Shown: in pieces, positions 1 to 23,674 of the stretch
Layout: each line of letters starts with the position of its first letter
Position numbering within the stretch: the stretch's first letter is position 1
Virus record (IMG/VR): IMGVR_UViG_3300000213_000004
Coordinates: 1 to 30,131 of that record
DNA: 30,131 nt
From: a virus
Strand: one strand, 5' to 3'
The notes under the pieces: generated by a model
Database searches by the model: none
What the model was told of the DNA's origin: nothing
The model's input: the letters and a program-made list of their open reading frames with translations, nothing else
Made by a program: the position numbers and the translations under genes

Positions 1-599
1 CAATTGCCAATATATTCTATATTTTTTTGTTTTTGACGAAGATGGAAGTGCCCAGAGAATACATGTTCTACTTTAGAGAAGTCATCTGTGCTAATCTCTC
101 CAGTGTCAGGCATTGTAATACTAGCGTTCATTTTAAAATGCGGTAGTTCGAAATGCCCAAATACATATTTGGCTTTTATCTTCTTTACTTTTGTATGATC
201 GTTTTTTACTAGCCACGGCACAATAGCTACATTATCCTCTTGGAACCACTTATTAATTACTTTAATGTTAGGTAAGTGTTTAGCCCATTCAGCACCATGT
301 ATGTCGCGCTTATCTTTGTAGTAAAGATCGTGATTCCCTGGCAAAAAATAAAAATTCTTAAAAGTTTTACTAAGTTTCTCTAGTGCCTTAAGGCTATAAC
401 TCAATGTAAGTAGGTTAATACTAGATCTATTATGATGCCAATCGCCTAAAAAAAAGCCTGTTTCGCATTTCTCTTTTTTAGCTATGTCGATAGCCCAATC
501 TACGAAATTATTGCAATCCTCGTTGTGTTGAGTGCTATTTGACTTTAGACCATAATGAATGTCAGTGAAGACGAGTGCTTTTTTAAATAAATTTGCCAT
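1..599 (-). CDS. 47: gp47-like recombination endonuclease subunit (SbcD/Mre11-type metallophosphoesterase), 3' end outside window
   Basis: The first 199 residues are present and the C-terminus runs off the left edge. The calcineurin-like phosphoesterase motifs occur in order: TDIHYG (D13, H15), GDWHH (about 52-56), PGNHD (87-91), GHFE (148-151) and SGHFH (182-186). These are the metal-binding residues of Mre11/SbcD/T4 gp47 nucleases. In T4, gp47 pairs with the gp46 ATPase to resect DNA ends for recombination-dependent replication. gp46 is not in the window and would be expected to the left. The start is the ATG at 597-599, giving MANLFKK, which puts the first metal motif at the usual distance from the N-terminus. 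It lies on the same strand as gp55 and only 14 bases after the end of the nuclease relic. Family assignment is firm; identity as gp47 rather than another phage phosphoesterase rests on the motif spacing and the gp55 neighbourhood. Confidence 0.85.
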   Translation of the reverse strand, partial: MANLFKKALVFTDIHYGLKSNSTQHNEDCNNFVDWAIDIAKKEKCETGFFLGDWHHNRSSINLLTLSYSLKALEKLSKTFKNFYFLPGNHDLYYKDKRDIHGAEWAKHLPNIKVINKWFQEDNVAIVPWLVKNDHTKVKKIKAKYVFGHFELPHFKMNASITMPDTGEISTDDFSKVEHVFSGHFHLRQKQKNIEYIGN

Positions 600-613
600 T
601 GGTGTATTATATA

Positions 614-1070
614 TTATTTTGCATTCAATGTATACACTAAATTCCCACAATCCCATATGCGATCGTATCCATTTATTCGCATATTATCCCATCCTGACAT
701 ATTGGGGTTAAATTTATCCAATAAATTCTCTAGTTTATGTTTTTGAAACTTATGCCTTGACCTTACTATTAATCCATTTTCGGCAGTGACTACATAGTTC
801 GGGGGGGACTACTCTGTTGTTGGACCAGCCCAATTTAGTTCCACCACCCACAAATCCTTCTAGGTGATTGTTCTTCATGAACTGCGTTGCATCCTTGGTT
901 GATACTTCTTTTAAGTTGCATTTCTTGGCATATATTCTATTAGCTCTTTGCAAACGAATTAAAATCATACTTTTCCAAATTAATTGGGATACTGGGTTAC
1001 TCCATTCAACATCGGATACATGCAATAATTGAATGCCTTTAGACTCGCAAGCTGTTGTCTTTGATATTTT
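614..1070 (-). pseudogene. Decayed homing-endonuclease-like gene (Hef-type C-terminal region), frameshifted
   Basis: Two overlapping reading frames on the minus strand together resemble one phage protein family. The first frame (1070 down to about 801) reads CESKGIQLLHVSDVEW, then IYAKKCNLKEVSTKDATQFM and NNHLEGFVGGG. The second frame (about 807 down to 614) reads PNYVVTAENG, then RSRHKFQKHKLENLLDKF, GYDRIWDCGNLVY and a stop. From memory these are landmarks of the C-terminal region of free-standing phage homing endonucleases of the Hef/VSR-like type. The frames meet at a run of seven G (801-807; C on the coding strand). Six instead of seven bases would join them into about 151 codons without a stop. 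There is no ATG start: the frame opens after a stop at 1071-1073, and a TTG at 1023-1025 is the only common start codon near its beginning. The N-terminal nuclease part is missing, and the segment between NHLEGF and PNYVV looks much shorter than in intact relatives. I read it as a relic between gp47 and gp55. A sequencing indel in the homopolymer could explain the frameshift but not the other losses. Confidence 0.72.
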
Positions 1071-1084
1071 TTACTGTTAAATAT

Positions 1085-1963
1085 TTACGGGATATTAAGT
1101 TGTTTGAATCTATTTTTTCTTGTTTTTTCAATTTCTGCCTCGTTTGCTAACTGTCTAGTCCAACTTGGGTCTAAACCGTGTTGCTCTAATATGTCATCTC
1201 TGATATTTTGCATCTTCTTTTCTGTTATTAATATCCTAGTAAAACAATTAGTTATCACAGCAGTATAATAAGCAAATGGATTCTGACTTTTCATCTCGTT
1301 GAATTGTAATCCAACTTGAACTAATTGCACTAGTGCTTGCCCTCTCATTTCATCGTTGTATGTATATCCTCGCCAATTGCTACGAGTACCATAACGTTCA
1401 CATAGCTTCATGAACATTTTAGCTAATTCAGCTGATATCTCACCGAGATCTTTATTAAATTCACCTGTATCGAAATCACCCTTCCAATGACTCTTACCGA
1501 CAATAAATGGTTGTTTTTTTCCATTGACTCGATAATGAAAGAAAGGTGGAAAATTACATTTAGTGGGTATCATTATTACATTAGGATCTTCTGATATTTC
1601 AACTTCTTCTTGTATGTTACTAAATTCATCTTTAAATACATCTTTAACCTTTTTTGGCTTTATTTTCTTTTTTGGTTTTTTTTGAATTCTAGGTACGTGT
1701 TCATCAGTCATAACTCTAAATACTACATCTGTATTAGTAATCGTTTTTAAATCTACGATTTCTCCAGTTTCTTTTGATAATCTAGTTGCTCTAGCTTCAC
1801 GAGCTTGTTTTAGTGTCCTAACGTTAATCTCACTTACATCCTCTATGATTAAGTCAAACATATAATCCTTCTCTCGATTAATATATGTACAATATGATGT
1901 CTTGCTTAGATGAATTTGTTTAAGTATGTCTTTGTTGTTTAAGTAATTAACTTTTCTTGTCAT
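1085..1963 (-). CDS. 55: gp55-like sigma factor for late transcription
   Basis: This is a 292-residue protein whose C-terminal half (about 185-275) matches T4-type gp55. It reads LCERYGTRSNWRGYTYNDEM, then NPFAYYTAVITNCFTRILI, then EKKMQNIRDDIL and GLDPSW. The segment around GYTY to FAYYT corresponds to sigma region 2, which binds core RNA polymerase and opens the short late promoters. T4 gp55 is about 185 residues, so this protein is longer. The extra N-terminal part has a very basic stretch near residue 98 (KKPKKKIKPKK) and a conserved-looking PPFFHYR block near 140-146. The ATG at 1961-1963 is preceded by a good Shine-Dalgarno (GGGGA, opposite 1970-1974), and a sigma70-type promoter lies upstream (1995-2023). 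The gene is read away from the late structural genes, as expected of a regulator made before them. Assignment is confident; the role of the N-terminal extension is unknown. Confidence 0.9.
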   Translation of the reverse strand: MTRKVNYLNNKDILKQIHLSKTSYCTYINREKDYMFDLIIEDVSEINVRTLKQAREARATRLSKETGEIVDLKTITNTDVVFRVMTDEHVPRIQKKPKKKIKPKKVKDVFKDEFSNIQEEVEISEDPNVIMIPTKCNFPPFFHYRVNGKKQPFIVGKSHWKGDFDTGEFNKDLGEISAELAKMFMKLCERYGTRSNWRGYTYNDEMRGQALVQLVQVGLQFNEMKSQNPFAYYTAVITNCFTRILITEKKMQNIRDDILEQHGLDPSWTRQLANEAEIEKTRKNRFKQLNIP

Positions 1964-2088: not shown

Positions 2089-4257
2089 ATGGCATCACAA
2101 ACTCAAATATTATATCAACAATTAATAGACCAAGGTTATAGTCCAGATCGAGCCGCTGACACAGCGATATCGCAGACAGGCGGGGATATAGATGATTTTG
2201 AATTCGGAATGTACAACGAACTAGTAGATCTTAATGTTATAGAAGAACAAAGAGTTGCCGAGTTAAGAGCTCAAGGTGCTAGGTTCTCGCAAGAAATAAC
2301 CACAATAGAAGAACTAGATACACAAACAACAACTTCTGCAACAGGCGGCAATACTGTTACTTTTATTAGTGCCACAAGCGAACATAATAGTCAAAGTATA
2401 GAATTAAATAATGAAGCCGTTGACGCATCGGAATTAGCTATTGCTCGTAGAGATCAGATATTTAATGAAACACGAGCTAATGGTGGTAGTAAAGGAGATG
2501 CATTACGAGCATTAAGATCGGATAGTGAATATAAAAGCCTTCAATCAGACGCGGCAGTTGCGTTGCGAAAATCAGTTAACGCAAAGACTGTTGTACCTGC
2601 TCGAATTGAAGTCAGAGATGTAAGTGGAAATTTATTAGATAGTGGTGATAGTATCAATGATGTTGATACTAGCAATTCTACGCAAAATGTAGTAATTAAT
2701 ACAGAACCAACAACTACAGTGCCGCTCGATGCTCCTCTAAATGATCAAGATACTTTTACGGAAACAGTAGCAAATCCAGTTTCAACTTTTGGTTTTGACG
2801 AACCTACACTTAATCCGGATAATCCTAACAGGACAATAGGCGGTGGTGTAAATCCATTATTATCTCTAGAAGAACAAGAAGCAGAACTAACGATAATTAA
2901 TGCAGAAAACAGAGGCGGCCCTGTTATTACAGAACCTGCTCCAGTTGATGATTTAGTATTCGATGATGAGCTTGGTGAATTTGTGCCAAGAGAAGATTTA
3001 GCTGGTGTCCCTGGGTTTGATGAAAATCCAACTGGACCATTACCGGTAGATGATCCTTTAAACGTCCAAGATACTTCCACTGAAAACATTACGCCAAATA
3101 ATTTAGTATTCGATGAGGAGTTAGGCGAATATGTACCTGCTGAAGATTTAGCTGGTGTCCCTGGGTTTGATGAAAATCCAACTGGACCATTACCGGTAGA
3201 TGAAGAAGTAGTCCGGGATGGCTTTGGTTGTTTGCCAGGCGAGACATACGATGATGAAAGCTTAGTTTGTGTACCTAGCGGTCGAACTATTGAAGGCTTA
3301 CAAGAGGGTGGGTTAGACGACTTTGGGTGTAAAATTGGGCTTGAGTTTTATGATGACGAGAATGGCATTTGTGTACCAAATGGTAAAAATGCTTCCGATA
3401 TACAACAGCCACCACCTTCTAAGCCTGTTCCAAAGGATGTTCAGGAAGCTAGACGAAAGATTGATAAAGGTGATTGGCGTGTAAGATTAAGTCTAGCACC
3501 TAATTCAGAATACTTATATAACGATCCATTCGCTAGTGCAGGGATACTTGGCCCGTTAATTGCAACAGATGGTATTATCTTCCCTTACATGCCCAAAATC
3601 GATCAGACATATTATGCAACATATTCATCGCACGATTTAACACATAGTAATTACAGAGGGTATTTTTATCAGAATAGTTATCCAGCAGAGGTAATTATTA
3701 ATGCTAAGTTCACAGCACAGGATACAAAAGAAGCAAATTATATGTTAGCTGTAGTACACTTTTTGAGAAGTTGTACTAAAATGTTTTATGGGCAGGATTC
3801 GGGTAATCCACATCGCGGTGCTCCACCACCTTTATTATTTTTGCGAGGGTTGGGTGAATTCCAGTACAACGAACATCCTTGTGCTGTAACAATGTTTAAT
3901 TATAACTTACCGGATGATGTTGATTATATTAAAGCAGGGGATGCTCCTGCTACTAACTTTGATTTTTTAGGCGGTCTTAAAAATAGTGGACATAGGAGTT
4001 GGAGTAGTAAAATTTCTAGACTATTATCATCGGGACTATCCTCTGGAGCGCAAGATACATTTCAATCTAGTACGAGTTTAACTGAAAATAATCAGAAATT
4101 TAGTCCATTTTCTATAGCAGAAGGAGCAACATATGTTCCTACTACATTAGATATACAATTTACTCTATTACCAATACAGACACGTAAACAAGTTAGTCAA
4201 CAATACAGCAATAAGTACTATGGCTATGGAACACTCACACGCAAAGGATTCTGGTAA
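2089..4257 (+). CDS. 48: gp48-like baseplate tail-tube cap with a long repeat-bearing N-terminal extension
   Basis: The C-terminal part (about 460-722) matches the tail-tube cap of T4-like marine phages as I remember it. It reads DWRVRLSLAPNSEYLYND, then GIIFPYMP, HSNYRGYFYQ, FTAQDTKEANYMLAVVHFLR, TKMFYGQD and EFQYNEHP, and ends with LLPIQTRKQVSQQYS and GFW. gp48 sits at the centre of the baseplate and nucleates tail-tube polymerisation with gp54. The first roughly 450 residues are not part of that core. Residues about 7-35 (LIDQGYSPDRAADTAISQTG) look like a small three-helix, UBA-like segment. Then comes an acidic Asn/Thr/Asp-rich region, two copies of an acidic repeat (about 288-322 and 338-372), and two copies of a short Cys motif of the form FGC-x2-G-x2-YDDE-x3-CVP-x-G (second copy FY; about 376-398 and 410-432). 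The stop codon overlaps the gp53 start by one base (TAATG), which implies translational coupling. The core assignment is good; the extension has no function I can name. Confidence 0.82.
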   Translation: MASQTQILYQQLIDQGYSPDRAADTAISQTGGDIDDFEFGMYNELVDLNVIEEQRVAELRAQGARFSQEITTIEELDTQTTTSATGGNTVTFISATSEHNSQSIELNNEAVDASELAIARRDQIFNETRANGGSKGDALRALRSDSEYKSLQSDAAVALRKSVNAKTVVPARIEVRDVSGNLLDSGDSINDVDTSNSTQNVVINTEPTTTVPLDAPLNDQDTFTETVANPVSTFGFDEPTLNPDNPNRTIGGGVNPLLSLEEQEAELTIINAENRGGPVITEPAPVDDLVFDDELGEFVPREDLAGVPGFDENPTGPLPVDDPLNVQDTSTENITPNNLVFDEELGEYVPAEDLAGVPGFDENPTGPLPVDEEVVRDGFGCLPGETYDDESLVCVPSGRTIEGLQEGGLDDFGCKIGLEFYDDENGICVPNGKNASDIQQPPPSKPVPKDVQEARRKIDKGDWRVRLSLAPNSEYLYNDPFASAGILGPLIATDGIIFPYMPKIDQTYYATYSSHDLTHSNYRGYFYQNSYPAEVIINAKFTAQDTKEANYMLAVVHFLRSCTKMFYGQDSGNPHRGAPPPLLFLRGLGEFQYNEHPCAVTMFNYNLPDDVDYIKAGDAPATNFDFLGGLKNSGHRSWSSKISRLLSSGLSSGAQDTFQSSTSLTENNQKFSPFSIAEGATYVPTTLDIQFTLLPIQTRKQVSQQYSNKYYGYGTLTRKGFW
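2950..3203 (+). repeat. Two direct repeats inside gp48, period 150 bp
   Basis: Segments 2950-3053 and 3100-3203 are related, and 2992-3053 is identical to 3142-3203 over 62 bases. They encode LVFD, ELGE, then EDLAGVPGFDENPTGPLPVD. The spacer (PLNVQDTSTEN) echoes an earlier stretch near 2734-2775 (PLNDQDTFTET), so the whole 50-residue unit has probably been duplicated. The period keeps the reading frame. Confidence 0.9.
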
Positions 4258-4550: not shown

Positions 4551-7031
4551 ATGACCGAGATTAAAAATAAACCAGGTATATCTAGCGCAGGTAGAATAGT
4601 TCAATCCGTCAGAAATGCCAAAGCAGAAGGTGCAATAGAACAAGATCCAGCAACTTTGCCTGGCATAGCAGTAACACCAGAAGAATCAAAACTATTAAAT
4701 AATCAATCACAACAATCAATTATTAACTCTAGTGCTACTAGTGCTAATTCAGTGGCTTCGATAGGAGGCAATACTAACGCTATAAAGCCAACATTAGATA
4801 ACTCTCCAGGCAGAATATTAAAAGAAGGCGCCCCTGGTTCTACATCACCTGATATATTTAATAAAAAGGGCAAAAAGAATCAAGAAGAAGTAGATAGCAA
4901 AGATACTGTTTTTAAAGAAGGTGCAAGCCCTGTTGCTAGTGAGTTTATAAAGAATATAACTGCACGTCCTAACATATTCACACAGTTTGCTTCAATGACA
5001 TACTCGATAAGCATTTATTTAATGAATCCACAACAATATACATCTATGATATCTACGGGTAATAGATCTGTGCAAGGATTAACTCTAATAATGCAGAGTG
5101 CTGGGATAGATAATAATGATAGTATAGTTAATGGTAATTTCGGTGCTATCAGAAGCGAGTTTTTTCCTGTTGATTTTTATATAGATAAAGTCGAACTAAA
5201 AGGTTTAGTGTCAGGAACATCAGTGAATGCTCCGCATAATGTATTTGAGATGAGTTTTACAATTACGGAGCCTAACGATTTAAGTTTTTTAGAGAGACTG
5301 CATGGAGCTGTACAACAGTATAATATAAACGAGGGTATTAGCAAAGATAGAATTAACTATGCCGCCCAAAACTTTTTAATGGTAGTAAGATTCTATGGAT
5401 ATGATCAACATGGGAAAATAGTATCAGGTAGTGATTTAGGTGTAGTGCCTGGAAGTGATACTACTAGTATTACAGAGAAGTTTATTCCATTTCAGTTTTC
5501 AGGTATACAATTTGGAATTGCCAATCAATTTGTAGAATATCGTTGTAAGGCTGTAGCCCCACAGACACAAGCGATTAGTTCTGCTAGATCTACTATACCG
5601 TTTAATGTGGAACTCGAGGGACAGACGCTACACGCTCTGTTTAATGGGCCGGGAGATGCGGCTACGGTATTACAGTTAGATCATGGCATTAGACCAAGAA
5701 GTGATGATACTGGATTATCTTTTGCTTTTATTGAAAAACATGCATCTGGGTTAACCGATTCATTAAATGAACATTACAAACGGGAAGCAGAGAAGAAGAA
5801 TTACGAGATTCCAGATGAATATATAATCTTTTTTGAAAAAGATAGTAAAATAGATAGAGCTACTGTAGCAAAACCAGGAATAACAGAAAAAGAAAGGACT
5901 AGTATGTCCCCACAAGCTACTGCATCTGATAAGTTGCTAACTAGTAAAGGATCCGTTAATAAAGATAGACGGTTATATTCAGTAACAGCCGGTATGTCTA
6001 TACTTCAATTTATCGATTTAGTTATGAGGACAAGTAGTTATATTACTAGTCAACAGAATTTTGTCATTGATGAAGTTACAGGCGAAGCTAAGTTAAACGG
6101 AGCATCAAATAAAGTCCTCCAATGGTATAAAATTAGAACAGAAGTAACACCGATTGGGTATGACAATAAACGCAACGATTATGCATACCGGATGAAATAT
6201 ATTGTTTCTAGGTATCTAGTTAACAATGTTAGAACACCTTATTTTCCTATTGCAAAATATAGAGGAGTACACAAAAAGTACAACTACTGGTTCACAGGCG
6301 AGAATACAGAAGTACTAAACTTTACACAAGATTACAACTATTTGTATTTCCAATCGTTTGGTCCAGAACTAAAAGGATTACCGAAGTTACAAAATAATGC
6401 CAGAGAGATTGAAAAGCGTTATTATCAGGCTAGTAGTGCAGAGAGTAGTCAAGGTGGCAAAAATAAATCAAATGAACCTGCGGCTAATGCGGCTGAAATA
6501 TTATACAGCCCAGCTGACCAAGCACAAGCTAAGTTAGAAATTTTAGGTGATCCAGACTGGATTGCACAAAGTGAAATATTCTACGGTGCAGATAAAAGTT
6601 TAAAAGATGTGGGTTTAGGACCATTTATGACTGATGGCTCGGTTAATTATGATGCGTCAGAAGTGTTATTCTCTATAAATTACAATACAAACACAGATTA
6701 TAATTTATTCACTGGTATAGCTAATGTTGGTAAAGATAATTACGGGCAGAAGTTAGATAGTGGTATACCTGGAGATTCTAGGATTAGTTTAGTGTATAGG
6801 GCTAATACAATTACCACTAAGTTATCTAAAGGTAAGTTTACACAGGAATTAGAAGGGACATTAATGTTATTCCCGACAGAAGAGCAACGAGTTAAACAAA
6901 ATACGGAGTTAGCAGGTCCACCTGGGTTTCAAACTTCTAATGTTAAGATAGACCCATCTGCAGGTGATGCATTAACTGTGTTACGTGCTCGTGGACATAG
7001 TGGAAATCAACAAAATACGGATTTTAACTAA
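4551..7031 (+). CDS. Large baseplate hub-type structural protein (gp27 position)
   Basis: This is an 826-residue protein between gp53 and the gp5 spike, where a hub protein that carries the spike would be expected. The first roughly 135 residues are polar and low in complexity. A structured part follows: FTQFASMTYSISIYLMNPQQ (about 142-161), then FFPVDFYIDKVELKGLVSG and FEMSFTITEPNDLSFLERL. Near the end (about 760-785) YRANTITTKLSKGKFTQELE followed by GTLMLFP looks like the closing strand pattern of hub proteins of the gp27/gpD type. I cannot align it with T4 gp27 (391 residues) from sequence alone, so the hub call rests on position and that pattern. It starts immediately after the gp53 stop and its own stop overlaps the gp5 start (TAATG). 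Confidence 0.6.
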   Translation: MTEIKNKPGISSAGRIVQSVRNAKAEGAIEQDPATLPGIAVTPEESKLLNNQSQQSIINSSATSANSVASIGGNTNAIKPTLDNSPGRILKEGAPGSTSPDIFNKKGKKNQEEVDSKDTVFKEGASPVASEFIKNITARPNIFTQFASMTYSISIYLMNPQQYTSMISTGNRSVQGLTLIMQSAGIDNNDSIVNGNFGAIRSEFFPVDFYIDKVELKGLVSGTSVNAPHNVFEMSFTITEPNDLSFLERLHGAVQQYNINEGISKDRINYAAQNFLMVVRFYGYDQHGKIVSGSDLGVVPGSDTTSITEKFIPFQFSGIQFGIANQFVEYRCKAVAPQTQAISSARSTIPFNVELEGQTLHALFNGPGDAATVLQLDHGIRPRSDDTGLSFAFIEKHASGLTDSLNEHYKREAEKKNYEIPDEYIIFFEKDSKIDRATVAKPGITEKERTSMSPQATASDKLLTSKGSVNKDRRLYSVTAGMSILQFIDLVMRTSSYITSQQNFVIDEVTGEAKLNGASNKVLQWYKIRTEVTPIGYDNKRNDYAYRMKYIVSRYLVNNVRTPYFPIAKYRGVHKKYNYWFTGENTEVLNFTQDYNYLYFQSFGPELKGLPKLQNNAREIEKRYYQASSAESSQGGKNKSNEPAANAAEILYSPADQAQAKLEILGDPDWIAQSEIFYGADKSLKDVGLGPFMTDGSVNYDASEVLFSINYNTNTDYNLFTGIANVGKDNYGQKLDSGIPGDSRISLVYRANTITTKLSKGKFTQELEGTLMLFPTEEQRVKQNTELAGPPGFQTSNVKIDPSAGDALTVLRARGHSGNQQNTDFN

Positions 7032-12286: not shown

Positions 12287-15200
12287 ATGGCGCGATTTCG
12301 TTCGGTAGATCTGCTACCTGAGATTTTTAAAACTAGCACTAATAAAAAATTCCTAAGTGCTACTCTTGATCAATTAGTTCAAGAACCAAAAGTTAAAAAA
12401 ACACAAGGCTTTGTTGGCAGAAAGTTCGGTGCTGGTGTTGATCCTAGCGATGATTATGTATTAGAACCAACTACTATTCGTTCAAATTATCAGTTTGAAC
12501 CTAGTGTTGTGTTTGAGCGTGATAATCCAAATGATGTTATTACATATCCTGGCCTAATTGATGCTGTAAACGTTAATGGCGCAAATACAGCACGTCACGA
12601 TTTATTGTTCAATAGTGAGATATATAGTTGGGACCCGTTAATTGATTTCGATAAGTTCATTAACTACAGTCAATACCACTGGCTACCAAATGGTCCCGAT
12701 AGTGTAGATGTTAGTTCATCTGATATTGTGTTAACGGATAATTTTACTGTAACACAGGATTTCCCTGTCAATGCTTATAATTTAAGTGGGTCAGATGGAG
12801 TCAATCCAACACTTACCTTAGTTCGCGGGGGGTCGTATACATTTAATGTTATTCAACCTAGTAATTTTTATATTCAAATAGAGCCTGGTACAGATGGTTT
12901 ACTAAATTCTTCTCCTAACATAAACACTCGTTCTGTGCTTGGTGTTGTTAACAACGGCGAAGACAACGGAACAGTTACTTTTAATGTACCAGATGTCGAT
13001 GCTCAACAATTTTACTATGATTTAACGGATATTGAATCTGTAGATTTGGCTACCACTGCACGATTTGATAGCATTCACGGTAAGTATATTAGTGAATTAG
13101 TTGATATTGACGGTATTACAGATTTAAACAATAGAACTATTGTATTTTTGAATGACACTCCGGGTGATTCGGCTGATTTAGGATGGCAATATCTTGATCT
13201 GTTTGATAATGAGACAATACCATTCGATTCTGTTAATTTCGACAACACAGTTTTTATTCCTCTGCAAGCAGATAGATACAGTATCTACAGAATAATATAT
13301 GTGTTGGATGCAGAAGGTGATCCTTATATAACATTAAATAAAATTCAATCTATCGATAATTTAGAAAAGTTTACAATTGGATTTGGTGATCAGTATGGTA
13401 ATATTGGGTTTTATAAGAACTCGACTGGGTTTTTTGAACAAATTCCGTTATTAACCGCAGTACTGAATACGTTGTATTACCAGGACGATACTAATCCATT
13501 AATGGTTGGTGTTATTAACATAGTAGATGAGGCTGAAGCAACTGTATTAAACATAAGTGATATTATCGGTCAGATAAACTACACTAGTGTTAATGATGTA
13601 AAGTTCACCAATGGTCTAAAAGTAATCTTTAGAGGCAATGTTAACCCAGCATCATTTCAGAACAACGAATATTATGTTGAATGCGTAGGCGAAGGCATTC
13701 AGTTAATCCCGGTAACTAGTTTAGTTACTCCAGAGACATACGTTAATAATCTATCAGAGTCATGGGACAGATTACCATGGGACAGCGATTTATTTGGAGG
13801 TGCATTAAATGCACCGTTAGATTTAGATTATCTTACAATTAGTAGAGCAAGTCTAGACTTAAATGCTTGGTCTAGAAGCAATAGATGGATACATATTGAT
13901 GTTATTGAACAAACAGCCGAATACAATAATACTACTGCTGTAATTGACAACGAAGTTAAAGCAAAACGACCTATTATTGAGTTTAAGAAAGGACTAAGGT
14001 TATTTGCTCATGGAACACTAAGTAAAGACCCAGTTGATATTATAGATTTTACTGAATTAGATGCATTTAGCAATATCAACGGTATGTTACCTGGTACAGT
14101 TCCGCTAATAGATGGTTATACAATACAAGAAGGCGCAAGAATTATTTTCGCGGCTGATACAGACAATAACGTAAGAAATAAAATATACGAAGTTCGTTTT
14201 GAGGATTTTGATGGCATAGGTGTAGATCAAATACATTTAGTCCCATCTAGCGACGCCGACGTTGAAATAGATCATGTTGTTGTTATTTTATTTGGCACAA
14301 CATTACAAGGCAAAATGTTCAGATACACTGGAACAGAATGGGATGAAGCACAGCAAAAAACAGCAGTGAACCAAGCTCCGTTATTTGATGTGTTTGATAC
14401 ATCCAGTGATAGTTTGGCTAGTATAGCTTACACAAATTCTACATTTAGTGGAACTCCGTTGTTTAGCTATCAAGTAGGTGCTGGCGTAAATGACACAGTT
14501 TTAGATTTTCCATTAACATTCCAGAATATCAATAACATAGGTGATATTGTATTCGACAATAATTTGTACAAGGACTCGTTTACATTTACGCTGGTTAATG
14601 ACGAGTCAGGGTTAGAGGTAGAGACAACCGCAAAAATAGAGGCTGGGTTCCCGCGTGTATATACATCAAGAACAGATTTTTCAGATAAGCTAGGTTGGAC
14701 AACCTTTGCAGAAGATGATGCAATTCATCAGATATTTACTTTTGTGTACGATGCTAATCCACTAGTACTAGATGTTGCGCCAAGGATAGATATCAACATA
14801 TCAGCAATAAAAGTGTTCATAGAGAACACTTTTATACTTCCATCCGAATATACTATAGTTGCTGACAATCCCTCGACGACAATTACTTTTACTAGCACAG
14901 TAGATATAGGCAGTAACATTGAAGTTAAAATTATCAGTGAACAGAATAGCCAAGTTGGTTATTATGATATTCCATATAATTTACAGAATAACATTTTTAA
15001 TGAGAACTCAGAGACACTAACACTAGGATCAATTAGAAACCATTACACTAGTATTGCACAGAATGTAACTAATTTAGAGGGTGTTATAAACGGATCTAAT
15101 AATACAAGAGATATTGGGTTCTTATCGTCGTTTGGTAATGCAATTATACAACATAGTGCTCCAGTTGCTCCTATGGCTACATTTTTACGCAACGAAGAAT

Positions 15201-18200
15201 ATGATTTCTTTAAGTCGGTTAAATTTGTATCCGAGCAGTACGAGAAGTACAAAAATCAAGTATTAGATTATGTAGCTAGGAATGATGTATTTGGATTAAC
15301 AGCTAATATAATATTAGATAATGCTATTAAAACCATAACCCACAGTAAATCGCCTACTAGTGCGTTCTACTTGAGTGATATGGTACCTTCTGGCACAGAT
15401 TTTACGTCTATGACATATACAGTTACAGCAATAAGCATAAATTCATTTGCTACAGCTAATGTATATGATTTTACGACTGCTAACCATGCGAGTTTATTAG
15501 TATACTTAAATGGTGATTTATTGACTGTTGGTATGGATTATACAGTAGCAACAGATGGACCAAGAATAGAAGTATTAGTAACATTAAACGAAGATGATAC
15601 AGTAGAAATTAGAGAATATACTAGCACGGTTGGTTCATACATGCCGAGTACTCCCACTAAGTTAGGATTGTATCCAAAATACCTTCCCAAAAAATATGTA
15701 GATAGTTCATACATCAACAATACCGAAGTAATTCAAGGCCACGATGGAAGTATTACAGTAGGGTTTGGCGACATCAGAGATGATGTGTTGTTAGAATTAG
15801 AAACAAGAATTTACAATAACATCAAAGTTAATTCAGTGTTGCCAATAGAACCTGGGGATATAATCCCAGGCAAGTTCCGTAATACATCATATTCTGATAT
15901 TGATATCACAAACATACTTAGTACTAGTTTTCTAAGTTGGGTTGGATGGCATAGATTAGATTACAGAACACAAGATTATGATTCTACTAACGAGTTCACT
16001 TTTAACTATAGCACAGCAGGTAGTAGTATAGATAATAGTGTTTTAAAAGGTCATTGGAGAGGGATTTATAAACATTACTTCGATACAGATACTCCACACC
16101 TTACACCGTGGGAGATGCTCGGTCTTACAATTATGCCAACTTGGTGGGAAGATGAATACGGACCTGCCCCTTATACTAGTGGTAATTTAGTCTTGTGGGA
16201 TGATCTCGAAGCAGGAATAATCAAAGAACCGGGGAATGAGCACACAGATACTCGTTATGTTCGACCTGGGTTAACAACAATTTTACCTGTTAATAGTTTA
16301 GGCGAATTAGTAAGCCCATTCCAATCTGTAGTAAAGGACTACAATACAGTAGACTTTATGAAGAGCTGGGTAGTAGGCGACGTTGCTCCAGTGGAATCAT
16401 CTTGGAGACGTAGCAGTGATTGGCCGTTTGTTGTACAGCGGTTATACGCATTAACCAAACCAGCACAGTTCTTTGCACTATCAGTTGATAGAGATCGTTA
16501 CGCATTTGACACAACATTACAGCAATTCTTATATGATGGGCGTACTAGGTTAGACACAAGAACAATAGAAATAAGCGATACAGACTCAAAACACAGTTAT
16601 ACAATTTGGATTCGTAATTATAACAAGTACCATGGGTTTAATCAACTCACGACTCTAGTGGATGAGTTAGCTAACTTAAATGTAAAACTGTGCTATAGGA
16701 TGGCATCATTTACTGATAAGAAATATTTAAAAGTATTTTCTGATAACATTAGCCCTGATAGTGATAAGCCAGGGCTGATAATACCAGACGAAAGCTATCA
16801 GTTATTATTGTATAAGAATCAAATATTTAATGAAATACAGTATTCATCTGTTATTGTACAAAGAACAAGTGATGGGTACGCTGTACACGGCAATAGTATC
16901 ACAGATAGAATATTCAATATATTAAATAGCATTCCAAATCAAAATTTTGATACCTTGACTGTTGGTACTGATGCATTTAGAATCCCCAAAGATTTTACTA
17001 ATATAATAACAGTAGTCCCATATGGGTATGTGTTTACATCAGTTAATGGTGTTGTCGACTTCTTAGTTAGTTACGGTAGGTTCTTAGAAGTACAAGGGTT
17101 TATATTTGACCGCGAAAACGGTATTGTTAATTGGGTGCAGATGGCACAAGAGTTTATAGCGTGGGCTAATCAAAATTGGATTACAGGTAGTCTAATTAAT
17201 TTGAACCCATCTGCAACAACATTAGAGTTTGATAAAGAATTATCGATCGTTGACAGCATTACACAAGACCAAGCATCATTGCCGTTGGATCAAAATATGC
17301 ACCCACTAACAAGCGACGATTATGTTATTGATAGGCTAGATAACAGTTTTAAAATCACAATGTTGAATGATAAAACAGTTAGCTACCTAAAAGTTAAATT
17401 AACTAGCTTCGAGCACTTGTTAATGTTAGATAACACGAGTATATTTAACGACTTAATCTACAATCCTACATTAGGGTTAAGACAGAACAGAGTTAGAATT
17501 AATGGATTAACTACATTTGAATGGAATGGTCAAGTAGATGCACAAGGGTTTATATTAAGTCAAACAGATACAGAAGAGTGGAAAAGCAATCGAGAATATA
17601 AGAAAGGCAATGTTGTTGAATATAAAAATCAACTATGGAGCGCATTAGTTAAGATCGAACCAGCAGAAGAGTTCAATATTAGTACGTGGCAACTGCTAGA
17701 TTCTAATAGTATATCTGACGGTTTATTACCTAATATAGCTAATAAAGCACAACAGTTTACTAATTATTACGACAAAAAAGTTGCTAACTTAGAGACTGAT
17801 GGTGATCTGTTAGGGTTTGGGCTAACAGGGTTTAGACAGAGATCTTATCTCGACGCATTAAACTTAGACGATACTAGTCAATATAATGTATACAGTAAGT
17901 TAATCCGTGAAAAAGGTACAAAAGGCAATGTTGATTTATTTAGAAGTATTAAGTTAGATAAACAAGAATACGAATATAATACATTTGAAAATTGGGCTGT
18001 TAGAGAGGCTATCTATGGAGCTAGTGATAATAACGCATTTATCGATCTATCTCTAAGTTTGACCAACTTACAATCCAATCCGCATGTAATTGAGATTGGG
18101 ACAACTAGCGAATTTGTTGGCATTGACCAGTTTATAAACTTAACTGATGTTTACAGACAAAGTGAAGTACATAGTACTAAGAATATTTTACCAATAACTC

Positions 18201-21200
18201 AACCTAATTTAACAACAGATATTAATTTACCGAGTGCAGGTTTTGTACACGAAGATGATGTTGATATTGCGTTATTTGAGTTGAGCAATATTACTAATAC
18301 ACAAGTTAGTAGTTTAGTAGAAGACTCGACTATCTGGGTTGCCAAAGATAACGCATTCGACTGGAATGTTTATAGAGCAGAAGAGATTAGTGCTACATTG
18401 ATAACAATAGGCAGTGGGAGTATTACCCTTACCTTTAACACTTCTTCTGGGTTAGCTATTAACGATAAGATTGCAATACAACATAATAATACAACAATCA
18501 GTAGCGTACATATAGTAACAGCAGTAGAACCAACGTCGGCGGATAGCATAGAGGTAACTGTGGACAACATTGTCTTAACAGCAGATCAGTTTGGGCAAGT
18601 AATTGTTGAGGGTAGTATAGAAGACGAGATATTCGTACCAAGCGGCGATGATATAGACAATACAGCAGATACAATACTATTCACAGCAGATAGCGAAGTA
18701 AAAGTATTTAAGTTACTATCAGCAAGAATACCAAGTATTAGTAGCAATCCATATACTTCTGGAAAAGTATGGGCAGATGACAACTATACAACATACGAGT
18801 TTAATTCGTCTTCTTCAGTATTTGATGTTGTAAGATCACAGCCAACTTCTATTGTAGATACTAGTTTAATCAATGTTATTAAACTTTACTATAAAGACAC
18901 GTCGGCAATTTTGCCTATAGATTTTATTGATCCAATAAACGGTAAAATGCTAGGCGTAGTTGATCAAAATATAGATTATACAGGTGCTGTTGATTTAGCA
19001 TTGTATAATTCAGATAATAGTTCTGATACACTGTGGGGCGCAGAACATATTGGAGAAATATGGTGGGATACAATCGATGTTAGATTCGTAGATTATAACC
19101 AAAATGATATAGATTATGCAAGTAAAAAATGGGGGACTCTATTCCCAGGAAGTACAGTTAGTGTTTATGAGTGGATAGAGAGTGATTTTCCACCTGATCG
19201 ATATCAAGGTAAAGGAACTGTTAGGAATACAACAGACTTTACATCAATGGCTAGTATTAACAGTAGTAGAATTATTACAACCAAATATTATTTCTGGGTA
19301 ACTAATTTACCTGATATTAATACTAAAGCAGGCAAGACATTAAGTACTATGTTAATAAGTTCTTATATCTCGTCTCCTGCTGGTTCTGGTGTTTCTTATG
19401 CTTCTTTAATTAAAGAGAATGTAATAGGATTGCACAATGTACAGAATCTATTAACTAGCGAATCTGTTTTACACATTAATTACGACAAGACATTTAATAA
19501 TGATAACATATTCAGCGAATATTCGTTAATTAAAGAAGATAAAAACACTGACTTCTTAACAGATAATTTATATCTTAAACTGTTAGATAGCTTAATTGGA
19601 GTTAATACGTTAGGAAGTATAGTCCCGGATCCGTTATTAAACGATGCTGAGAAGTACGGTGTTAGTTTCCGTCCTAGACAATCAATGTTTATTGATAAAG
19701 AGAAAGCATTAACGAATTATCTAACAAATTTTAACACTTATATTAAACAATTCGCAATAAGCGAACAAAATGTGTTTAATTTATTGGACAGCAAAGATCC
19801 TGTGCCGAGTGTAGGTAGTTTTGATTTCCAAGTCTTAAACTTAGACGAATTGGCATTCCAAAATTTACTATTAGTGCCAGCAGGATTCAAATATCTTGTG
19901 TTAACAGATTCTAATAACAATAATGGCTGGTCAATATATGAAGTAGATACAAGACCGTCGACATTTTTAGTTTCTACACAATCATTTAGAACTAATCGGT
20001 ACTGGGATTTTATTGATTGGCACGACTCGAGCATTAATTCTAGTGTTATTCCAGAAGAGACAGTTACACAATTCTCAGATTTATTAACATTAGATGTAGT
20101 AGAGGGAACTATTGCAAAAGTAACGACCAACCCTTCTAATAAATTTGAATTTTATAGATTCGATGAAGGAAGCTGGGTTAGAGTAGCATTGGAAGATGGC
20201 ACAATTGCAATTAACATTACAACAGCAAAAGACGCACCAACAGAATTACGCCAAATCTTAAAAGCAATCAATGAAGAAGTTCTAATTGGTGACATGAAGA
20301 TACAACGTAATGTGTTGATGGTGCTGATGTTTAACTACATTCTATCCGAACAAGGTAATGTTAATTGGTTATACAAGACAAGCTTTGTTGATGTTGAAAA
20401 CAATGTCCGTGAATTAGCACGATTCCCTGTATTCCAACAAGACAACCATGACATAATTATCGATTATATTACAGAAGCTAAACCGTATCATGTTCTTCTT
20501 AAAGAATTCCTGTTTATATATAATAAATTAGATGAAGTAAACGGTAATGTTACTGATTTTGATGTTCCTGTGTATTTTGACACAACATTTGGTAAATTTA
20601 TTAGCCCAGTGCTAGACTATGATGGGGTTATACTAACATCGGATCAAAGTAATTTTGACGAAGATGGCATTGGGTTAAGAGTATCCAACCCTAATATCTG
20701 GACTACAAATCCATTGGATAGTTGGTTTACTAATCATCTGTTAAGTATAGATAGTATTATTGTATCTAATGGTGGCACTGGTTATAGCGTAGTACCAATT
20801 GTAACAATTACAGGTGATGCTACGACGCCAGCAACTGCAACCGCTAGAATAGATAGTGCTGGGCAAGTTATTGAAATAACATTAGATACAGCAGGATCTG
20901 GATATTTAACAACACCAGTTGTAACAATTACAGGTGGCAATGGCACAGATGCATTAGCAGTGCCGATGATGGATAACAATAAAGTTAGATCATTAACTAC
21001 AATAATTAAGTACGATAGATATCAATACGATACAACTATTGTTGAGTGGGAACCTAATATATGGCACGATGGTGAACAGTTATTCAGACAAAATAATGTA
21101 GTATATAAAGCAAACTCAACTCATACTCACGCAGTAGATCATACTGCTGATGTGTCCTTGACTGTTACCGCGGACATGTTTTTAAATGCAGACGTTGCTG

Positions 21201-23674
21201 AGTTTACATACGATACTGTATTGAACCAATACGAAAGGCTAGTTGGTACCACAGTTAAACCAATTTCCGAAGATTTATTTAAGATATTAACAAAAGATAT
21301 ACTCAGCTTAAAAGCAGATGCAAATACATTTGCTTACAGTGATGGTGTTTTTAACCCTGATAATTTTGATGTTGTAGATTCAGCTACATTAAGCGGCATT
21401 GATAGAACTATGGGTTACTATGACCCGGATGTTAATGATCCTGGGCTTAATCTTGCGTTATTAATTGATGGCATTGATTATCCTGGTGTAAAAGTTAAAG
21501 GTGTGTCATTCACAAGCACATACTCGGGTGTAGATGTTAGCACAATTGATGCTACTGTGGATGGGCATGGATTTATTACAGCATCGCAAGAGACATATAA
21601 CAGTCATGCTCCTGAAGAATTAGTCCCAGGTAGTACATTCGATACATTAAATTTAACAGTACATACAAGACCTGGATTTGATTATACGAACAATGGACAT
21701 GGGTTTGTATTAGCTGAAATGATACATGAGTGTGCTGTTATTCCTTCTACAATTGATTTTACTGGACTAGTAAAACATTTAATTACAGTTACGGTAGTTA
21801 ACATAACAACAGGTAAAACACTGTACGAAGGTGTTAATTATACACTAGATTGGGCAAAACAATTAGTAACAGTAACAACAGGAGTATCAGAAGATGATTT
21901 TGTTAAAATCATCGCGTATGAGATTGGCGGCGGTAATCAATTATATCGTAATACATACACAGGTAATGAATTTACAGATGGCAATCAATTAACTATTCCA
22001 GTTGAGTTAAATGATATTACTGACATTTACATATTAGTTAATGGAGTTGAGGTTACAGCATTTACATCTGCGGCTATCAATGCTCCAACTGTCGACACAA
22101 CATTAGTTACAACAGACGTAGATACAGTAACAGCAGATGCTAGTGTTCCAGATACATTAGATTTAACAGTAATTGACTTTACAGCGGTGTATACATCGAA
22201 CGACTTTATTTCGGTAACAGTATTCGGTGGTCAATCATTGGAACATGATCTTGTGACATCTGCTGGTGTTGAAGTAGAGTTAAATAGTCACCCAGAATCT
22301 GAAGTGTTTATATCTGATGGTAGCACAACTAGCTTTACTTTAGGTATTGATATAAACGCTAGTGATTTAACGCCAGGCAAGAATAAATTAAATGCTATTG
22401 TTGAACACAATGGCCTAAGGTTGCGTCCACCCGAAGGGATTCAATACATAGGCAATGGCACAACAACAGTGTATCGATTACCAACAAGTGGTGGAATAAA
22501 TCATGATTTAATTGTAGATGCTGACGTATTTGTGTTTACTAGAGAAACAGGAATACAGAATGCTCCATGGACATACGAAGAGTTAAAAATATTAACAACA
22601 GATTATACTATAAGTCCTATTACTGGAGATGCTAGGTTTATAACATTTACAACACCGCTAGCACTAGATAACGAGATTGAAATATATATCACAACCAAAG
22701 CACGATATTCGTTTAGTAATGGATGGACTGGCACAACACCAGCGACACCTGATTTAATAATCAGCAGTACTGTTACGCTTGATGCATTGGATACTATTGC
22801 AATTACAGCATGGCGCGAAGTTAGTGCATCAAGGGTATTAACGAATGTGTTTAAGGGACCGTTAGATTCAGAATTATTTGATAGTACACCTTTCGACACT
22901 ATTGGCTTTGATAATAGCGACGAAATTGTTGCTTTGTTTGGCACCGCAAATGTTTTTAACATTGGAAGAACGACCACAGATGATAGGTTGTGGGTTACAT
23001 TTAATGGAAGAGTTCTAACATCAGATATAGATTATACACTAAGTGGAACCGTAGTTGTGATACCTGATATTGTAGTAGAAACGTTAATAGCAGATGATGT
23101 GGACGATTTTGATGTTGTTATTACTAGTTTTACACCTAATGTTGTACCTAGTAGCTTATCATACAGAGTATTTGATGATATGCGTGGTAATAAAGCAATG
23201 TATAAAGTATCGGATACAAATACAACATACATAACCACCGCAATATTACCAACAGACAACACAATTTATGTAGAGACTGCTAGTGTATTAGAAGATCCTA
23301 ATCTACCAGCAGGTAAGTTTGGTATTTTAAACGTAAATGGCGAGAGGATTACGTTTAGAGATAGGACATTAACTACAGCCGATACAATTACAATTACAGG
23401 TGATAGTGATATTACTATTGATTCTACTGATTCTATAACAGGATTGCGGAGAGGAACAGCAGGTACAGCAGTTATTGCACACCCAGTTGGTTCTACTGTG
23501 GTTGATTCGAGTGAGAAGAGTTTATTAGCATTCCGAGAAGCAAGTTCTAATCCATATCCAACTACATTAACGGATGGGGAATTCTTAGATGTTGGACTTA
23601 TTGGATATAATCGGAGTCTAGGGTCTCCTGTACAAGAGCAAGACACAATAGCAGTGAATTTTATCAAACGTTAA
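12287..23674 (+). CDS. Giant virion structural protein, gp7 position (3795 residues)
   Basis: A single open frame of 11.4 kb encodes a protein of more than 400 kDa, about 3.7 times the length of T4 gp7 (1032 residues), the wedge protein that follows gp6 in T4. It is probably a baseplate wedge or peripheral fibre-network protein. Landmarks in order: N-terminal MARFRSVDLLPEIFKT and INYSQYHWLPNGPDSVDV (about 125-142); VIQGHDGSITVGFGDIRDD followed by LLELETRIYNNIK (about 1148-1185); PTWWEDEYGPAPYTSGN (about 1284-1300), all resembling blocks in huge marine-phage structural proteins; a carbohydrate-binding-like segment (about 1763-1806); a pair of GGTGY/GSGY beta repeats ending in VTITG (about 2829-2890); a second Trp/Tyr-rich segment (about 2920-2946); and a C-terminal block ending with TGLRRGTAGTAVIAHPVGST (about 3700-3740). 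No enzyme motif is visible. The gp7 equivalence is positional; that it is a structural protein is secure. Confidence 0.75.
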   Translation: MARFRSVDLLPEIFKTSTNKKFLSATLDQLVQEPKVKKTQGFVGRKFGAGVDPSDDYVLEPTTIRSNYQFEPSVVFERDNPNDVITYPGLIDAVNVNGANTARHDLLFNSEIYSWDPLIDFDKFINYSQYHWLPNGPDSVDVSSSDIVLTDNFTVTQDFPVNAYNLSGSDGVNPTLTLVRGGSYTFNVIQPSNFYIQIEPGTDGLLNSSPNINTRSVLGVVNNGEDNGTVTFNVPDVDAQQFYYDLTDIESVDLATTARFDSIHGKYISELVDIDGITDLNNRTIVFLNDTPGDSADLGWQYLDLFDNETIPFDSVNFDNTVFIPLQADRYSIYRIIYVLDAEGDPYITLNKIQSIDNLEKFTIGFGDQYGNIGFYKNSTGFFEQIPLLTAVLNTLYYQDDTNPLMVGVINIVDEAEATVLNISDIIGQINYTSVNDVKFTNGLKVIFRGNVNPASFQNNEYYVECVGEGIQLIPVTSLVTPETYVNNLSESWDRLPWDSDLFGGALNAPLDLDYLTISRASLDLNAWSRSNRWIHIDVIEQTAEYNNTTAVIDNEVKAKRPIIEFKKGLRLFAHGTLSKDPVDIIDFTELDAFSNINGMLPGTVPLIDGYTIQEGARIIFAADTDNNVRNKIYEVRFEDFDGIGVDQIHLVPSSDADVEIDHVVVILFGTTLQGKMFRYTGTEWDEAQQKTAVNQAPLFDVFDTSSDSLASIAYTNSTFSGTPLFSYQVGAGVNDTVLDFPLTFQNINNIGDIVFDNNLYKDSFTFTLVNDESGLEVETTAKIEAGFPRVYTSRTDFSDKLGWTTFAEDDAIHQIFTFVYDANPLVLDVAPRIDINISAIKVFIENTFILPSEYTIVADNPSTTITFTSTVDIGSNIEVKIISEQNSQVGYYDIPYNLQNNIFNENSETLTLGSIRNHYTSIAQNVTNLEGVINGSNNTRDIGFLSSFGNAIIQHSAPVAPMATFLRNEEYDFFKSVKFVSEQYEKYKNQVLDYVARNDVFGLTANIILDNAIKTITHSKSPTSAFYLSDMVPSGTDFTSMTYTVTAISINSFATANVYDFTTANHASLLVYLNGDLLTVGMDYTVATDGPRIEVLVTLNEDDTVEIREYTSTVGSYMPSTPTKLGLYPKYLPKKYVDSSYINNTEVIQGHDGSITVGFGDIRDDVLLELETRIYNNIKVNSVLPIEPGDIIPGKFRNTSYSDIDITNILSTSFLSWVGWHRLDYRTQDYDSTNEFTFNYSTAGSSIDNSVLKGHWRGIYKHYFDTDTPHLTPWEMLGLTIMPTWWEDEYGPAPYTSGNLVLWDDLEAGIIKEPGNEHTDTRYVRPGLTTILPVNSLGELVSPFQSVVKDYNTVDFMKSWVVGDVAPVESSWRRSSDWPFVVQRLYALTKPAQFFALSVDRDRYAFDTTLQQFLYDGRTRLDTRTIEISDTDSKHSYTIWIRNYNKYHGFNQLTTLVDELANLNVKLCYRMASFTDKKYLKVFSDNISPDSDKPGLIIPDESYQLLLYKNQIFNEIQYSSVIVQRTSDGYAVHGNSITDRIFNILNSIPNQNFDTLTVGTDAFRIPKDFTNIITVVPYGYVFTSVNGVVDFLVSYGRFLEVQGFIFDRENGIVNWVQMAQEFIAWANQNWITGSLINLNPSATTLEFDKELSIVDSITQDQASLPLDQNMHPLTSDDYVIDRLDNSFKITMLNDKTVSYLKVKLTSFEHLLMLDNTSIFNDLIYNPTLGLRQNRVRINGLTTFEWNGQVDAQGFILSQTDTEEWKSNREYKKGNVVEYKNQLWSALVKIEPAEEFNISTWQLLDSNSISDGLLPNIANKAQQFTNYYDKKVANLETDGDLLGFGLTGFRQRSYLDALNLDDTSQYNVYSKLIREKGTKGNVDLFRSIKLDKQEYEYNTFENWAVREAIYGASDNNAFIDLSLSLTNLQSNPHVIEIGTTSEFVGIDQFINLTDVYRQSEVHSTKNILPITQPNLTTDINLPSAGFVHEDDVDIALFELSNITNTQVSSLVEDSTIWVAKDNAFDWNVYRAEEISATLITIGSGSITLTFNTSSGLAINDKIAIQHNNTTISSVHIVTAVEPTSADSIEVTVDNIVLTADQFGQVIVEGSIEDEIFVPSGDDIDNTADTILFTADSEVKVFKLLSARIPSISSNPYTSGKVWADDNYTTYEFNSSSSVFDVVRSQPTSIVDTSLINVIKLYYKDTSAILPIDFIDPINGKMLGVVDQNIDYTGAVDLALYNSDNSSDTLWGAEHIGEIWWDTIDVRFVDYNQNDIDYASKKWGTLFPGSTVSVYEWIESDFPPDRYQGKGTVRNTTDFTSMASINSSRIITTKYYFWVTNLPDINTKAGKTLSTMLISSYISSPAGSGVSYASLIKENVIGLHNVQNLLTSESVLHINYDKTFNNDNIFSEYSLIKEDKNTDFLTDNLYLKLLDSLIGVNTLGSIVPDPLLNDAEKYGVSFRPRQSMFIDKEKALTNYLTNFNTYIKQFAISEQNVFNLLDSKDPVPSVGSFDFQVLNLDELAFQNLLLVPAGFKYLVLTDSNNNNGWSIYEVDTRPSTFLVSTQSFRTNRYWDFIDWHDSSINSSVIPEETVTQFSDLLTLDVVEGTIAKVTTNPSNKFEFYRFDEGSWVRVALEDGTIAINITTAKDAPTELRQILKAINEEVLIGDMKIQRNVLMVLMFNYILSEQGNVNWLYKTSFVDVENNVRELARFPVFQQDNHDIIIDYITEAKPYHVLLKEFLFIYNKLDEVNGNVTDFDVPVYFDTTFGKFISPVLDYDGVILTSDQSNFDEDGIGLRVSNPNIWTTNPLDSWFTNHLLSIDSIIVSNGGTGYSVVPIVTITGDATTPATATARIDSAGQVIEITLDTAGSGYLTTPVVTITGGNGTDALAVPMMDNNKVRSLTTIIKYDRYQYDTTIVEWEPNIWHDGEQLFRQNNVVYKANSTHTHAVDHTADVSLTVTADMFLNADVAEFTYDTVLNQYERLVGTTVKPISEDLFKILTKDILSLKADANTFAYSDGVFNPDNFDVVDSATLSGIDRTMGYYDPDVNDPGLNLALLIDGIDYPGVKVKGVSFTSTYSGVDVSTIDATVDGHGFITASQETYNSHAPEELVPGSTFDTLNLTVHTRPGFDYTNNGHGFVLAEMIHECAVIPSTIDFTGLVKHLITVTVVNITTGKTLYEGVNYTLDWAKQLVTVTTGVSEDDFVKIIAYEIGGGNQLYRNTYTGNEFTDGNQLTIPVELNDITDIYILVNGVEVTAFTSAAINAPTVDTTLVTTDVDTVTADASVPDTLDLTVIDFTAVYTSNDFISVTVFGGQSLEHDLVTSAGVEVELNSHPESEVFISDGSTTSFTLGIDINASDLTPGKNKLNAIVEHNGLRLRPPEGIQYIGNGTTTVYRLPTSGGINHDLIVDADVFVFTRETGIQNAPWTYEELKILTTDYTISPITGDARFITFTTPLALDNEIEIYITTKARYSFSNGWTGTTPATPDLIISSTVTLDALDTIAITAWREVSASRVLTNVFKGPLDSELFDSTPFDTIGFDNSDEIVALFGTANVFNIGRTTTDDRLWVTFNGRVLTSDIDYTLSGTVVVIPDIVVETLIADDVDDFDVVITSFTPNVVPSSLSYRVFDDMRGNKAMYKVSDTNTTYITTAILPTDNTIYVETASVLEDPNLPAGKFGILNVNGERITFRDRTLTTADTITITGDSDITIDSTDSITGLRRGTAGTAVIAHPVGSTVVDSSEKSLLAFREASSNPYPTTLTDGEFLDVGLIGYNRSLGSPVQEQDTIAVNFIKR
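14807..14835 (+). other. Perfect 12-bp hairpin inside the giant gene
   Basis: ATAAAAGTGTTC (14807-14818), a 5-base loop, and GAACACTTTTAT (14824-14835) are perfect complements. The right arm ends in TTTTAT, so the shape is like an intrinsic terminator with a short U run. It is in frame, encoding part of ISAIKVFIENTFILPSEY. It may be an mRNA structure or partial attenuator, or chance in AT-rich DNA. Confidence 0.5.

Follow-up and report, generated by a model that had tools for sequence, protein, structure and literature searches.

A Probable Pseudogene of a Free-Standing Hef-Like Homing Endonuclease Between gp55 and gp47 of a T4-Like Phage

Introduction

What is the DNA that lies between gp55 and gp47 in a T4-like phage known from a metagenome assembly, and how might it have come to its present state? 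The window, i.e., the whole stretch analysed here, is a 30,131-bp IMG/VR virus record, and the DNA in question is carried on its minus strand. A first-pass annotation, made from the letters alone, saw at 614–1070 the relic of a homing endonuclease that marked a past invasion site between the two genes, and held a seven-base homopolymer chiefly responsible for its broken frame. The decay of phage endonucleases is usually inferred from a single broken copy; here one site offers an intact allele, many empty ones and two deletion alleles, neither of which can be derived from the other. The best explanation of the locus, to which we give a probability of about 0.9, is a pseudogene of a free-standing Hef-like homing endonuclease, a protein comprising an EDxHD/Vsr-type nuclease, a DUF7487 repeat region and a conserved C-terminal domain.

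Preserved Pieces of the Endonuclease Gene

The relic is flanked by a gene for a gp55-like late sigma factor of 292 amino acids (1085–1963, minus strand; PHROG 12791, E 4e-75) and by the N-terminal part of a gene for a gp47-like (SbcD-like) recombination endonuclease subunit, which runs off the window (3–599, minus strand; PHROG 100, E 6e-49). All of the landmarks named in the first-pass annotation are located on the minus strand, with CESKGI..YAKKC..NNHLEGF in one frame, at about 1066–829, and RSRHKFQKHKL..DCGNLVY..NAK* in another, at 828–614. The PHROG 3339 profile (“homing endonuclease”, 536 positions long) matches over positions 317–395 (E 1.5e-20) and 477–535 (E 4e-14), or with E 5e-37 when the two frames are joined, and both halves match PHROG 559 in the same colinear order. 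Since the two halves match the same two endonuclease families colinearly, the resemblance is not due to chance, and by this similarity the locus is a decayed member of the Hef-like/PHROG 3339 family. Pfam yielded no model for either piece, and a DNA search of an isolated-phage collection with positions 1–2400 of the window, in near and distant mode, found nothing.

An intact protein of 578 amino acids, encoded at the same location in contig 3300028706_000007 (L063), provides the reference for what has been kept. Its alignment to the window by HMMER consists of three colinear pieces: residues 3–31 at 1137–1051, 356–443 at 1076–813 and 513–578 at 814–617. The first is a 5′ stub (1051–1137, minus strand), recovered by HMMER in its own genome with E 4e-8 and by DNA alignment, which overlaps the 3′ end of gp55. 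Sequence comparison delimits the others as segment A (829–1066, minus strand), which covers residues about 356–438 with 91.6% DNA identity to L063, and segment B (614–828, minus strand), the C-terminal end from about residue 509 to 578, whose codons from 799 on are 88% identical to L063 and which keeps the original stop codon TAA at 616–614. The two frames placed at 614–1070 are therefore real, but the relic starts upstream of them, with the third, 5′ piece. As the annotation said, the endonuclease frame of the window lacks an ATG start; nothing in the window corresponds to the ATG at L063:2927. An upstream ATG within gp55 was also considered as the start of the window copy and was ruled out, being absent from the sequence.

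Two other features of the window lie apart from this locus. An ORF for a 722-aa virion protein (2089–4257) contains a 106-bp direct repeat, about 90% identical between its copies at 2948–3053 and 3098–3203, and comparable repeats with the pattern (D/N)xxY/FDexxGEYxP occur in the L063 counterpart of this ORF. On the plus strand, 3′ of a baseplate wedge gene, a single open frame of 3,795 codons (12287–23674) probably encodes a giant structural or fibre protein.

An Intact Relative and Three Frame-Breaking Lesions

Scans of viral contigs with segment A returned one close relative, L063, at 89% amino acid identity, and segment B led to the same contig at 84%. The L063 protein matches PHROG 3339 with E 2e-124 and the Pfam family DUF7487 with E 2e-22, and its next-best relatives are about 40% identical. 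A five-member profile of intact proteins matches I-Bth0305I (PDB 3r3p), the type member of the EDxHD homing endonucleases, with E 6.5e-5 over the nuclease region. When viral contigs were scanned for others that share the flanks or the endonuclease segment, only L063, a second contig (L002) and one distant match came up. Two sister contigs each carry another uninterrupted Hef-like endonuclease elsewhere, about 34% identical, at the loci L130 (G001:C1:4531-5826) and L131 (G002:C1:40648-41766).

Relative to L063, the window copy has three lesions. Deletion 1, of 998 bp, has its junction at a 7-bp direct repeat, TATCAAA (1060–1066, minus strand), and takes out residues about 32–358, including the entire nuclease core. 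The residues E327, D329, E340, H347, K355 and H358, which are invariant in five relatives, all fall inside this deletion, so the nuclease is gone; lacking the EDxHD/Vsr-type core (E..D, E, H, K, H), the window copy is classed as a pseudogene and not as an active member of the family. Deletion 2, of 211 bp, has its junction at GGG (829–831, minus strand; GGGAT is repeated in L063) and costs the central part about 70 residues. The third lesion is a run of seven C residues (801–807, minus strand; G7 on the plus strand) that corresponds to C5 in L063. The annotation had described the nuclease part and a central segment as apparently lost. These sizes and the ancestral length of the run are relative to L063, which is a proxy and not the true parent, its endonuclease gene being about 10% diverged. 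The run length and the junctions come from one metagenome assembly, and the exact relic is present in one contig only.

None of the three changes is divisible by three, and each of them shifts the frame, leaving the open frame of the copy broken in three places. This bears on the suggestion that the two frames would join if the G7 at 801–807 had six bases. The position of the run and the net offset of one base are correct; the offset, however, results from the 211-bp deletion and the change in run length together, and the homopolymer is accordingly neither the sole nor the main cause of the disruption. Changes with respect to L063 favour third codon positions (12 of 20 and 12 of 22).

The endonuclease segments and their neighbours differ in their distance to L063. 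Synonymous divergence (dS) is 0.31 and 0.34 in the two endonuclease segments, 1.54 in gp55 and saturated in gp47. The ancestry of the endonuclease is thus more recent than that of the flanking genes, as in a mobile element, and this difference indicates that the endonuclease moved horizontally.

A Second Deletion Allele and a Recombination Patch

Contig 3300024339_000480 (L002) represents nearly the same virus: outside the endonuclease its alignment to the window, over 28,477 bases, is free of gaps and has 14 substitutions, so that the two deletion alleles sit in flanking genomes that are 99.95% identical. The gp55–gp47 gap of L002 is only about 100 bp long. At the 5′ end of the endonuclease gene, this contig still carries 50 bp that are missing from the window; downstream of them, a deletion of roughly 1.6 kb at GCAAA has taken away everything that the window retains. 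Because each keeps DNA that the other has lost, neither allele can be derived from the other by deletion, and the two descend separately from a more complete gene.

The differences between these two genomes are concentrated around the locus. A patch of about 1 kb at 503–1556 holds 10 of the 14 substitutions, together with the differing endonuclease deletions, whereas the roughly 27 kb outside it have 4; clustering of this kind did not arise once in 200,000 random placements. Eight of the ten patch substitutions are synonymous and the other two conservative, and they therefore look like real divergence. The region 503–1556 is a recombination patch. Homing could have produced it, as could ordinary recombination without an endonuclease, and either genome could be the recipient: no direction of transfer emerged when the substitutions between the window and L002 were polarised against L063 and other relatives, and of the ten patch sites the window shares three with L063 and L002 another three.

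The gp55–gp47 Gap Among Relatives

Comparison of 54 gp55–gp47 loci (not dereplicated) revealed a gap of 24–92 bp, i.e., an empty state, in 32 of them. With an intact gene in L063, a differently deleted one in L002 and these empty gaps, one site is polymorphic for presence and absence of the gene, as is typical of a mobile element. The comparison of empty and intact states that the first-pass annotation had proposed thus supports its view of a dying copy at a past invasion site. Other endonucleases also occupy the gap. GIY-YIG enzymes are found in L012–L014 and L045 (PHROG 314 and 5123), and Hef-like genes are present in L056 and L073/L076 in the same orientation and in L151 in the opposite one. 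In T4-like phages, endonucleases of several classes are known to share one site (PMC2988022). No intron was found with Rfam in four loci, which leaves an origin from a group I intron without support.

The gap of L003, L015, L016, L017, L020 and L035 contains unrelated genes of 0.8–2 kb (radical-SAM-like, sulfotransferase-like and others, judged by eye), which marks it as a general insertion site and not one reserved for endonucleases. Intein-like elements were also noticed in these relatives. In two diverged phages, L073 (448–2391, plus strand) and L056 (about 4603–5522), gp55 is split in frame at the same site by an intein-like insert (NWRGY / C...N / TYN) with a weak Pfam intein-splicing match (E 5e-4), and a Hef-like endonuclease lies directly downstream of the insert-bearing gene. 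A gp46-like protein of L151 (3–1553, minus strand) carries an intein in its P-loop (GNGTGK / AQPLTSN...VVTHN / TT; LAGLIDADG_3, E 4e-11).

A Possible Mark of the Insertion on gp55

The last codons of gp55 in the window (..RKNRFKQLNIP*) lie in DNA homologous to the endonuclease 5′ end, read in a different frame. The same arrangement holds in L063, L002 and the window, where the final codons and stop of gp55 overlap the endonuclease start region in the other frame (IELNNLISRKYLTVK). This stretch, IELNNLISRKYLTVK, aligns with MTIDQLKLLKYITVG of L056, whose gp55 stops upstream of it, and the gp55 tail differs in relatives with an empty gap. From these alignments we infer that the insertion may have given gp55 a new C-terminal tail, which would explain why both deletion alleles keep a 5′ stub. 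A broader reading, which we put forward tentatively and at somewhat less than even chances, is that the endonuclease changed a core gene for good: gp55 would end inside the endonuclease 5′ end, loss could proceed only downstream of that point, with the same stub kept in both deletion alleles, and the gap would present a natural series in which some alleles are empty, some intact and others dying independently. If this is true, the speed and route of endonuclease loss become measurable in a phage population.

Alternative Explanations

The history of the relic could differ from decay in place. The gene may already have been broken when recombination, whether ordinary or driven by homing, imported it with about 1 kb of flank from a slightly diverged relative, and we regard this as a roughly even proposition. 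The contrast in substitution density between the patch and the remaining genome favours an import, and two large deletions plus a run change are less likely to have accumulated in place within so short a time. The even split of the ten patch sites with respect to L063 tempers this argument, since L002 may be the recipient instead. Import touches only the history of the locus, which is still a dead endonuclease gene. A different concern is that the assembly of a strain mixture created the deletions or the C7 run artificially, and that the virus itself has an intact gene. Errors are common in homopolymers, near-identical genomes differ at this locus, a setting in which assemblers misjoin haplotypes, and the allele is known from one contig. 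An artefact would nevertheless have to account for three separate frame-breaking lesions, two of them at repeats of 3–7 bp, which are too short for assembly collapse, and for the different deletion that L002 has in the same gene; we consider it improbable.

Still less credible is a functional short protein, which the first-pass annotation had allowed for by slippage at the run and which could also be sought in a TTG-started frame of 91 codons at 750–1025. The segment A frame is free of stops through the junction and up to the C7 run, and the third-position bias against L063 would fit coding function, although it is expected from the earlier time as an intact gene. Such a product would have to do without the catalytic core and about 70 central residues and to cope with three frame shifts. 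Moreover, the near-identical sister L002 has lost the whole 3′ part and kept only the 5′ stub, and the conserved short form in relatives that would have spoken for function was looked for in the viral-contig scans, which found none. The pseudogene thus remains the preferred reading.

A Model for the Locus and Comparison With Known Systems

Under the pseudogene reading, a lineage of the endonuclease gene would have entered the phage horizontally. The intact gene would cut alleles without it, and recombination repair would copy the gene and some flanking DNA across, after which the endonuclease start may have come to overlap the 3′ end of gp55. Deletions between short direct repeats (3–7 bp) would then have removed the nuclease core and the central domain, with a change in homopolymer length, while other members of the same phage population would have lost the gene through a different deletion. 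What we infer is that the intact relative cleaves DNA, where its target lies, in which order the lesions arose and that no functional product is made. The locus makes it possible to measure, in a natural phage population, the loss phase of homing and the part that short repeats and an overlap with a core gene play in it.

The closest known systems are the Hef-like endonucleases (PHROG 3339/559) of Campylobacter, Vibrio and Yersinia phages, which belong to the same family, share the conserved C-terminal RSR.KFQKHKL..DCGN.VY and, in intact form, are also placed between core phage genes. The window copy differs from them in being broken by two deletions and a run change, and in being inserted between gp55 and gp47; for comparison, nrdB is the target of the T-even Hef of phage U5 (PMC2988022). 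I-Bth0305I resembles the intact relatives in that their nuclease domain aligns with it, but it is intron-encoded, and the corresponding domain is deleted from the window copy. I-TevIII, the nrdB intron endonuclease of T4, is inactive through a large deletion and has an intact ortholog in phage RB3 (PMC2988022). It thus offers a parallel, in which an internal deletion kills an endonuclease while a related phage keeps an intact copy at the same site. I-TevIII is nevertheless an intron-borne HNH enzyme, whereas the relic described here is free-standing and EDxHD-like, has several lesions and is accompanied by a second deletion allele in a sister genome. At the level of population dynamics, the finding follows the known homing cycle of invasion, degeneration and loss (PMC1654191, PMC3943268), to which it adds an allelic series, with empty, intact and degenerate states all present at one site. 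That model was built on introns and inteins, which need precise loss, whereas the intergenic gp55–gp47 site tolerates imprecise, scarring deletion.
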